DNA from: Microcaldota archaeon
GTDB taxonomy: Archaea > Micrarchaeota > Micrarchaeia > Micrarchaeales > CABMGC01
DNA length: 43,946 bases
NCBI GenBank assembly: GCA_021850705.1
Contig: JAJZKU010000006.1
Span: 1-43,946 of the forward strand
Direction: 5' to 3'
Of this stretch, positions 17,795 to 43,517 are shown one piece after another. Under the pieces are notes generated by a model. That model searched no databases, had not been told where the DNA came from, and saw only the letters and a list, made by a program, of their open reading frames with translations. Each line of letters starts with the position of its first letter. The stretch's first letter is position 1. A program made the position numbers and the translations under genes.

Positions 17795-18517
17795 TTATTT
17801 CCTCTTTCTCAGGTCTGCCGTTATTATATGGAAGTTTTTCTCTGCGTTGTCATAACCTAGCGCAGACTTGAAGACCTCTGCATCAAGAGTCATGGTGCTG
17901 TCCGAATAGGGATCGTTTATGTAGAATGCGTCCTTATCATAGCCTGTTACGACCACCCAGTGCGGTGATGACTCCATATAAGGGTTTATCACATTTGCAT
18001 CTATCAGCACTATGGGCAGCTGGTGCGCAGAGAGTGCCTTCTTTATAGAATTTATCGTTATGTTGTTTGAGTGCTCCTCTTCAACCTTCATGGAGAGAGC
18101 CTTGCCCTTTATCTCATTGAATGAAGCGGTAAGTGTATCGAGATTGACATTTTCATAGACTGCAAGCTTCCTGTCGTATCCTTCATCCTTTGTATTGCTC
18201 ACTATTCTTACCTTTGCGCCTCTCTTTGCAAGTGCGTATGCTATGCCATACTTTGAACCGTGCCAGACGCTCCCGTTTACTGCCTCCTGCCATATGCCAT
18301 ACTCCTGATCCTTTGAGAGCTTGAAGTTCTTGTTGATATATTTTAGTACCATCATGGTGCAGGCTGCGGAGCTTGTAAATTCCTCTGTCTGTGGATAATG
18401 AGGCACCTCAAGGGCGACCTGTGGCTTGAGTTTTGCCCTCTTAGAATGAGACTGTACTTTTGAGGGTTTCCTGACTGGTTTCGCCTTTTTCGTGGATTTC
18501 TTCTTGGTTATCGCCAT
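17795..18517 (-). CDS. C39-fold papain-like protein with displaced catalytic cysteine
   Basis: A 240-aa protein. Residues 1-32 are extremely basic, a likely nucleic-acid-binding or disordered tail. Residues ~35-235 follow the C39/C39-like peptidase layout: VPHYPQTEEFTSSAACTMMVLKYI, then SPHWVVVTGYDKDAFYINDPYS with the catalytic His and the NDP Asp. At the position of the usual C-G-P-A the sequence reads S-S-A-A-C, so the nucleophile Cys is either lost or moved by four residues. No signal peptide, so it is cytosolic. Its ATG lies only 16 nt after tRNA-Leu on the same strand, with AGTGAT as ribosome-binding site, implying a tRNA-mRNA cotranscript. Confidence 0.72.
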   Translation of the reverse strand: MAITKKKSTKKAKPVRKPSKVQSHSKRAKLKPQVALEVPHYPQTEEFTSSAACTMMVLKYINKNFKLSKDQEYGIWQEAVNGSVWHGSKYGIAYALAKRGAKVRIVSNTKDEGYDRKLAVYENVNLDTLTASFNEIKGKALSMKVEEEHSNNITINSIKKALSAHQLPIVLIDANVINPYMESSPHWVVVTGYDKDAFYINDPYSDSTMTLDAEVFKSALGYDNAEKNFHIITADLRKRK

Positions 18518-18533
18518 TGAATCACTTTTATGG

Positions 18534-18631
18534 TGCAGGGAGAGAGATTTGTTCAGTGTTATTGAACTCTCGTAGGCCTAAGCCAACAGATCTTGAGTCT
18601 GTCGCGTTTGACCAGGCTCCGCCATCCCTGC
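18534..18631 (-). tRNA. tRNA-Leu (anticodon CAA) with a 13-nt insertion in the T-loop
   Basis: Read on the minus strand. The acceptor stem GCAGGGA pairs with TCCCTGC; the D-stem is GCG/CGC; the anticodon stem ACAGA/TCTGT encloses CTCAAGA (anticodon CAA); the long Leu-type variable arm contains GGCTTAGGCC. The T-stem GAGAG/CTCTC encloses 20 nt rather than 7. Removing 13 nt (about 18551-18563, with 1-2 nt ambiguity) restores TTCAAAT and a normal 85-nt tRNA-Leu. The inserted bases form a GTTCA/TGAAC hairpin typical of a bulge-helix-loop splice site. The discriminator A is followed by CCA (18531-18533) in the genome. Confidence 0.9.
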
Positions 18632-18742: not shown

Positions 18743-20182
18743 ATGAGAGTCAAAAAGATTGATGATTATAGGTTCAATATAGAGAAGGACACTTCAAGCG
18801 GCATGAATACAGGAGTGGTCATGTACTCCTCTGAGAAACTTATGGCCAACCTTAAGAATGATAGGACGATGCAACAGGCTGCAAATGCCGCAACGCTGCC
18901 TGGAATACGCGGGAATGTCATGGTTATGCCAGACGGCCATGAGGGCTATGGTTTTCCCGTAGGAGGAGTGGCTGGCTTTGATTCTGACGAGGGGATAATC
19001 TCCCCAGGTGCGATAGGATTTGACATAAACTGCGGCATACGCGTAATAAGGACAAATCTGGAAGAGTCCGATATAAGGAAGAATATGAAGAGACTCTCTG
19101 ATGAGATATTCTCCAGTGTGCCTAGCGGGCTTGACAGCAGGCTTAAAGCTGGTTTTGAGCTCTCAGACCTTGAAAAGGTAGCTCATGAAGGCGCGGCATA
19201 CCTTGTAAGCAAGGGCTTCGGAGTCCATGAGGATATAGAGCATATGGAGGAGAATGGGTGCATGGAGGGTGCGGACTTCTCCAAAGTGAGCCAGCGCGCA
19301 AAGTCAAGAGGGAAGAATCAGCTTGGCACTCTCGGAGCCGGCAACCACTTCCTTGAGATACAGAAAATAGATAAGATATTTGACAAGAGGCTTGCAAAGG
19401 CATACGGAGTATATGAAGGGCAGATAGTAATCATGGTGCATACCGGATCAAGAGGCTTCGGCCACCAGATATGCAGCGATTATCTCCGTACGCTTGCGGA
19501 ATACCAGGCCAGGAAGGGCATAAAGATAGTTGATCCGGAGCTTAGCTACGCGCATGTTAAGAGCAAGGAAGCGGATGATTATCTTAAGGCTATGAAGTGC
19601 GGAGTGAACTTCGCATTTGCCAACAGGGAGATGATAACGCACATAATAAGGGAGAGCTTTGAGAAGGTGATGGGAAGGAGTGCTGAAGAACTGGGAATGA
19701 GCCTGCTGTACGACCTTTCTCACAATATAGCAAAGCTCGAGGAACATAAAGTGGATGGTAAAAGAGAGGCAGTGTACGTGCACAGGAAGGGAGCTACAAG
19801 GGCATTTGCAAAAGGAAGGAAGGAGATACCAGAGGTTTACAGGGATTATGGGCAGCCGGTACTCATACCAGGAAGCATGGGAACAGCCAGCTACATACTT
19901 GCAGGTGGTGAAGGGGCGATGGAAGAGACCTTCGGCTCTGCATGCCACGGCGCTGGCAGAGTCATGTCTAGGCACCAGGCGCTTCGTGAGATAGGAGCGG
20001 AAAAGACCATGGCCTCTATGAAGAGCAAGGATATAGAGCTCAGAGTGCATGATAGAAGGCTGGTAAGCGAGGAATCCGAATGGGTCTACAAGGATATAGA
20101 CGAGGTAATCAGGGTGGTTGAAGGGGCGGGGCTTGCAGCGCCCGTATCGAGGAATGTGCCAATAGCCGTGATAAAGGGCTGA
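18743..20182 (+). CDS. rtcB: RtcB, tRNA-splicing RNA ligase
   Basis: A 479-aa GTP- and Mn-dependent ligase joining 2',3'-cyclic phosphate and 5'-OH RNA ends, the enzyme that seals tRNA exons in archaea. Recognised motifs: VMPDGHEGYGFPVGGVAGFD (~56-75), GFDINCGIR with the metal Cys (~93-101), LGAGNHFLEIQ, VHTGSRGFGHQI, and SACHGAGRVMSR carrying the guanylylated His. The length is full and there is no intein, although archaeal RtcB often carries one. It is divergent from the intron-containing tRNA-Leu gene about 110 bp away. Confidence 0.98.
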   Translation: MRVKKIDDYRFNIEKDTSSGMNTGVVMYSSEKLMANLKNDRTMQQAANAATLPGIRGNVMVMPDGHEGYGFPVGGVAGFDSDEGIISPGAIGFDINCGIRVIRTNLEESDIRKNMKRLSDEIFSSVPSGLDSRLKAGFELSDLEKVAHEGAAYLVSKGFGVHEDIEHMEENGCMEGADFSKVSQRAKSRGKNQLGTLGAGNHFLEIQKIDKIFDKRLAKAYGVYEGQIVIMVHTGSRGFGHQICSDYLRTLAEYQARKGIKIVDPELSYAHVKSKEADDYLKAMKCGVNFAFANREMITHIIRESFEKVMGRSAEELGMSLLYDLSHNIAKLEEHKVDGKREAVYVHRKGATRAFAKGRKEIPEVYRDYGQPVLIPGSMGTASYILAGGEGAMEETFGSACHGAGRVMSRHQALREIGAEKTMASMKSKDIELRVHDRRLVSEESEWVYKDIDEVIRVVEGAGLAAPVSRNVPIAVIKG

Positions 20183-33291: not shown

Positions 33292-33431
33292 GGGGTTGTT
33301 GCGTAACTTGGCAGCGCGGCAGGCTCCAGATGTTTATAATCCAATGAGCCTTTGGGCGATGATGAGGATCTGGAAGTACCGAATAAATATGAAGTAACCT
33401 GCAAGTCGGGGTTCAAATCCCCGCAACCCCA
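33292..33431 (+). tRNA. tRNA-Trp (anticodon CCA) with a 67-nt intron at 37/38 carrying a box-C motif
   Basis: The acceptor GGGGTTG pairs with CAACCCC; the D-stem is GCGT/GCGC; the anticodon stem GCAGG/CCTGC has the loop CTCCAG-A split by an insertion; the T-stem CGGGG/CCCCG encloses TTCAAAT; discriminator A. Removing 33330-33396 gives a 73-nt tRNA. The intron forms TTTAT/ATAAA (33333-33337, 33383-33387), and GAAG near its 3' end pairs with three of the four bases C32-C35, a relaxed bulge-helix-bulge. It contains ATGATGA (33359-33365) and ATCTGGA (33368-33374), complementary to T33-G37 plus two intron bases. Confidence 0.93.
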
Positions 33432-43397: not shown

Positions 43398-43517
43398 TGG
43401 CGGGGGGGAGATTTGAACACCCGATCTCTAGATTTCTAAGATCATAGCCGAAAGGCTCATTACTCATCATGCTATGCATATGAGTCTAGCGCTCTAACCA
43501 GGCTGAGCTACCCCGCC
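43398..43517 (-). tRNA. tRNA-Met (anticodon CAT, probably elongator) with a 45-nt intron at 37/38
   Basis: Minus strand. The acceptor GGCGGGG pairs with CCCCGCC; the D-stem is GCTC/GAGC; the anticodon stem CTAGA/TCTAG encloses CTCATA-A interrupted by 43434-43478. The T-loop is TTCAAAT with stem GGGTG/CTCCC (one T-T mismatch). Mature length is 75 nt. The intron has the helix CATAGC/GCTATG; its TTAG near the 3' end pairs with three of four bases C32-A35, again mismatched at 34. It carries ATGATGA (43464-43470 on plus as TCATCAT) and ATGAG complementary to C32-T36. The initiator's three G-C pairs are absent from the anticodon stem; tRNA-Ile2 is not excluded. Confidence 0.9.

Follow-up and report, generated by a model that had tools for sequence, protein, structure and literature searches.

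A bulge-helix-loop intron predicted in the T-loop of the tRNA-Leu(CAA) gene of an order of Micrarchaeota

The window analysed here, a 43,946-nucleotide stretch of a Microcaldota genome, carries on its minus strand at 18534-18631 a tRNA-Leu(CAA) that is complete and has a long variable arm. Its T-stem, GAGAG/CTCTC, encloses 20 nt, TTCAATAACACTGAACAAAT, and removal of 13 of them gives TTCAAAT, all as described in an earlier sequence-only reading. The locus raises the question of whether the gene is broken, whether its product works with an enlarged T-loop, or whether the extra bases are spliced out, as that reading proposed in postulating an intron of the bulge-helix-loop (BHL) kind. This proposal is strongly supported by the recurrence of an insert at this site in 80 genes, orthologs that have TTCAAAT and no insert, a single common splice register, an intron strand whose substitutions preserve pairing, the lack of a second gene and an epsilon-type splicing endonuclease. 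Judging from sequence comparison, we put the probability at about 92% that the insert is a non-canonical archaeal intron that would be cut by the endonuclease EndA at 58/59 and whose exons would be joined by RtcB. The features of the locus are given in Table 1.

Table 1. Features of the interrupted tRNA-Leu(CAA) locus and its neighbours in the window
Feature	Position	Strand	Evidence or remark
tRNA-Leu(CAA) gene, interrupted	18534..18631	-	Rfam RF00005 45.1 bits; covariance model R1 103 bits
5' exon, tRNA positions 1-58, end ...GAGAG-TTCAA	18562..18631	-	sole register with TTCAAAT in 80/80 interrupted homologs
Exon strand G53-U54-U55-C56 of central helix	18564..18567	-	invariant in 80/80
Putative intron, 13 nt, TAACACTGAACAA, between positions 58 and 59	18549..18561	-	absent from uninterrupted orthologs
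Intron strand GAAC of 4-bp central helix	18551..18554	-	pairing-preserving substitutions
3' exon, tRNA positions 59-73, AT-CTCTC-TCCCTGC-A	18534..18548	-	
Anticodon CAA	18593..18595	-	anticodon loop CTCAAGA uninterrupted
CCA 3' of discriminator	18531..18533	-	probably incidental; 10/88 homologs
rtcB, divergent neighbour, expected exon ligase	18743..20182	+	Pfam PF01139 E 3.8e-165, full profile
C39-peptidase-like ORF	17795..18517	-	Pfam DUF3335/Peptidase_C39_2; not part of intron system

The T-arm is indeed the only abnormal arm of this tRNA; the other arms show no damage and strong conservation, and nothing interrupts the anticodon loop. The Rfam match (E 1.5e-6) includes extra T-loop bases, and ARAGORN in its bacterial setting did not report a tRNA-Leu(CAA) at these coordinates. 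Because the T-loop is split, an essential tRNA is missed by a standard gene finder. Two other tRNAs of the window, at 43398-43517 (minus strand) and 33292-33431 (plus strand), have long inserts in the anticodon loop, that is, introns of canonical type, and were matched by Rfam but missed by ARAGORN. The C39-peptidase-like ORF starts 16 nt past the tRNA and shares its strand, so that cotranscription of the two is possible.

To survey the relatives, the family and the order were searched with a covariance model (R1) made from twelve of the relatives' Leu(CAA) genes; the insert had been removed from these, so the model carries no information on it. The search yielded 88 Leu(CAA) loci, spread over two families of the order. 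The insert is present in 80, and the remaining eight have an uninterrupted 7-nt T-loop; seven of these loops read TTCAAAT and one reads TTCGAAT. The inserts are 10-21 nt long and comprise 76 distinct sequences, yet all 80 lie at the same point, with TTCAA at the start and AT at the end of every interrupted loop, a recurrence that exceeds chance. Genus g12 contains both forms: G016 has the insert and G017, G018, G020, G021 and G023 have none, while the exons are near-identical and rtcB lies divergently upstream in each. The Leu(CAA) genes that were read outside the order have uninterrupted T-loops, and four such genes from one genus are identical to the spliced window gene at 81-82 of 85 positions. 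A similar insert at the same site in nearly all relatives within the order argues for a real and old intron, not a broken gene. The order's ancestor probably acquired it, and a few lineages would then have lost it cleanly.

If the gene were nevertheless a decayed pseudogene, an intact Leu(CAA) gene should exist elsewhere. The missing ARAGORN call and the incompleteness of the metagenome-assembled genome (646,820 bases in 24 contigs, 79% complete) would fit such a reading. A second, uninterrupted Leu(CAA) gene, on whose absence the original proposal depended, was not found in this 79%-complete genome, where the interrupted copy is the only one. Since the assembly is incomplete, four single-contig relatives (G016, G137, G149 and G154) were also checked, and all have the interrupted copy only. 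With the sole Leu(CAA) gene of single-contig genomes being the interrupted one, its other arms intact and this form kept in 80 genes, a pseudogene or dispensable copy is very unlikely, its probability close to negligible, and we dropped this reading. The interrupted gene is predicted to be functional and the only source of tRNA-Leu(CAA). The assembly also contains the same tRNA gene pair twice with few differences in the flanks (G000:C20:818-1037 and G000:C22:515-734), which is either a duplication or the trace of two strains.

The fold of the precursor is more stable than that of shuffled sequences (z = -3.55). In the MFE structure the T-arm consists of 4 bp, a 3-nt 3' bulge (AAA), 5 bp and a 7-nt loop, with GTTCA opposite TGAAC. 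The helix and the 3-nt bulge that had been read from the sequence are thus found in this structure, but the clean bulge needs a shifted T-stem, in which positions 49-52 pair with 60-63; when the T-stem keeps its native register, the bulge has 5 nt. The computed energies are -6.5 kcal/mol for the shifted form, -4.4 and -4.5 kcal/mol for native forms and -3.4 kcal/mol without the intron helix. Among the interrupted Leu genes checked, the shifted pairing is possible with 4/4 pairs in 75 and with 3/4 in two; the GAG/CTC repeat could allow U60 to pair with A52. The precursor of tRNA-Leu may shift its T-stem register. A U at position 50 (T-stem GTGAG), which would weaken the shifted pairing, occurs in six of the eight uninterrupted Leu(CAA) genes and in no interrupted gene; the six are L128, L129, L142, L143 and L144, all of genus g12, and L203.

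As the exon strand of the central helix is fixed by T-loop function, two-sided covariation is invisible and only one-sided changes could be scored. Across the 76 distinct introns, all 22 substitutions at the GAAC positions keep G-C, A-U or G-U pairs, although they come from related sequences and are not independent. They are A to G opposite U and C to U opposite G, and none affects the G that faces C56. The adjoining position -7 has 16 changes, six of them transversions (Fisher p 0.003, relatedness uncorrected). RNAalifold, applied to the T-arm alignment, kept only the T-stem, and the central helix was missing from its result.

Taken by itself, the window gene has four registers that give TTCAAAT and does not fix the splice point; it is fixed at 58/59 by the relatives. 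When TTCAAAT is required in all 80 genes, only the register after A58 is left, the others being excluded by variants such as loops ending in ACAT (L135, L152, L196, L197 and L199) or CTAAT (L171) and by the TTCAAT at the start of the window's own loop. This register lies two nucleotides past the helix on both sides, with A57 and A58 on the 5' strand and AA on the 3' strand, and it is also the one predicted when the ruler of the archaeal endonuclease is applied to the G53-U54-U55-C56/GAAC helix. A real intron spliced instead at 59/60 or 57/58, or in a species-dependent register, has only a slight chance of being correct. Besides the four registers of the window, it can draw on 59/60 being better known as a site in the T-loop (PMC4090602, PMC3218864), and on the use of 59/60 by a tRNA-Arg(TCT) of the same genome. 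Splicing at 59/60 in the window, however, would leave TTCAATT, and the fit to 80/80 is unique to 58/59. Judged by the last exon base of the pairing helix, C56 in Leu and A57 in Arg, splicing is expected at 58/59 in Leu and at 59/60 in Arg.

The tRNA-Arg(TCT) in question (L034, G000:C5:57796-57884, minus strand) has the T-loop TTCAAAAGACCTTCTGAAAGT, with a 14-nt T-loop intron. Its relatives fall within L323-L352, and 59/60 is the sole register common to the family's 22 interrupted Arg(TCT) genes. In 20 of the 22, all four bases of TTCA find a partner in the intron strand, which reads TGAA or TGAG; the helix leaves a 3-nt bulge, and the T-stem next to it stays intact. In three other genomes (G074, G002 and G013) the Arg(TCT) T-loop is an uninterrupted TTCAAAT. 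Compared with Leu, both the end of the helix and the splice point are one base later in Arg. This difference fits the T-stems, as the GAG/CTC of Leu can shift whereas the GCGGG/CCCGC of Arg cannot do so in the same way.

The genome encodes an enzyme suited to such a substrate. Its EndA aligns over query residues 1-338 with that of ARMAN-2 (4FZ2, 4fz2_A; E 2e-136) as a three-unit fusion; the ORF is open at the contig end and its N-terminus may be cut. The catalytic Tyr/His/Lys and the Tyr160/Lys161 of the ARMAN-specific loop (ASL), residues that the ARMAN-2 enzyme needs (PMC12397907), are conserved; in an alignment with 30 other Micrarchaeota proteins from different families, 29 of them have the same five. 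The ARMAN-2 enzyme cleaves one BHB and one BHL pre-tRNA, the latter pre-tRNA-Cys (PMC12397907), and only (alpha beta)2 and epsilon2 endonucleases remove relaxed introns efficiently (PMC6379350). By its residues and architecture, the window genome's own EndA is of the epsilon2 type with predicted broad specificity. The endonuclease type was also considered as the cause of the intron's distribution and rejected: the epsilon type with its ASL is found across the sampled families, including those without the intron, which was seen in one order only. A permissive enzyme permits such introns but does not by itself explain where they occur.

We infer that this tRNA is transcribed, cleaved and ligated as follows. 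In the precursor, exon bases G53-U54-U55-C56 would pair with intron GAAC, so that a bulge-helix-loop replaces the T-loop. The epsilon2-type endonuclease would cut each strand two nucleotides beyond the helix, so that A58 ends the 5' exon, A59 begins the 3' exon and 13 nt are released; RtcB would then ligate the exons, giving the T-loop TTCAAAT. Were the insert retained instead, the mature tRNA would have an enlarged, structured and working T-loop. The strong conservation of position and flanks is what a structural element would show, but the insert differs freely in length (10-21 nt) and in loop sequence and its flanks still give TTCAAAT, orthologs in the same genus lack the insert, and the enzymes for splicing such motifs are encoded. 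A broken T-loop would abolish the contacts between D-loop and T-loop, which also counts against retention. We consider its probability very slight.

RtcB is the expected exon ligase. The nearest matches of its product, from 96% to about 60% identical, are nearly all from metagenome-assembled genomes of Candidatus Micrarchaeota. The sequence-only reading had drawn attention to the tRNA facing rtcB. The divergent arrangement is real and recurs at 62 of 67 loci of family f1, and at the remaining five the upstream sequence is limited to 39-783 nt; in family f2, rtcB was found beside Leu(CAA) at none of the 18 loci examined, within 1.4-1.6 kb upstream. Adjacency as a general part of the system was accordingly rejected and, being confined to one family, it is uninformative on the mechanism. 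The encoded CCA, also singled out before, is present as described and is encoded in none of the other tRNAs listed from this genome, but with only 10 of 88 homologs having it, it did not hold up as a meaningful feature. A CCA-adding enzyme is encoded by seven of eight relatives and was not found in the incomplete own assembly.

Disrupted tRNAs and an epsilon2 endonuclease in ARMAN were reportedly described by Fujishima in 2011 and Hirata in 2012. Introns of this kind are already known; what is unusual here is how deep and clear the record is, with one site in one tRNA across an entire order and clean absences. Non-canonical tRNA introns, including some in the T-arm, are known from the Thermoproteales, at positions that include 53/54, 56/57 and 59/60 (PMC4090602), and also from Caldiarchaeum and, at various tRNA positions, from ARMAN. 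BHB/BHL introns of Thermoproteales and other archaea resemble the one described here in being short, outside 37/38 and in the T-loop, with a relaxed BHL and a restored consensus loop. There, however, many introns are scattered by transposition. Position 58/59 is absent from the published list, which ends in 'etc.' (PMC4090602), while the well-known 59/60 is one base off. In Thermofilum pendens, permuted tRNAs are BHB-processed and joined at 59/60 (PMC3218864), a T-loop junction one nucleotide away, but these genes are circularly permuted whereas the window gene has normal order and an intron. ARMAN-1 and ARMAN-2, with disrupted tRNAs and epsilon2 enzymes, share both phylum and endonuclease type with the window genome; cleavage is reported for ARMAN introns of the BHL and hBH kinds, which lie at various positions in the tRNA (PMC6379350, PMC4033280), and the substrates named there are pre-tRNA-Cys(GCA) and pre-tRNA-Ile(UAU) (PMC6379350, PMC4033280, PMC12397907). 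The same tRNA, phylum and endonuclease type are found with the Leu(CAA) genes of several other Micrarchaeota families, which have an insert directly after the anticodon, the canonical place (37/38 type; L235, L237, L240, L251, L252 and L245). Their T-loop is intact, whereas the genes of the window's order have a split T-loop and an intact anticodon loop.

In this order of ultrasmall archaea an essential tRNA can thus escape a standard gene finder, and the 80 interrupted and eight uninterrupted genes, with one genus having both, form an unusually clean natural series for studying the gain and loss of tRNA introns. It is conceivable, though unlikely, that the T-loop introns of the sole Leu(CAA) and of Arg(TCT) are kept as a maturation checkpoint, with the repetitive GAG/CTC T-stem enabling a register shift that forms the motif. 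If so, the T-loop would be blocked until splicing, delaying elbow formation and T-loop modification. The tRNA-Leu(TAA) of members of the order (L317, L316, L309, L315 and L314, in G016, G082, G137, G149 and G154) has roughly 16-25 extra D-loop nucleotides and an intact anticodon loop, and this extra sequence is probably another non-canonical intron.
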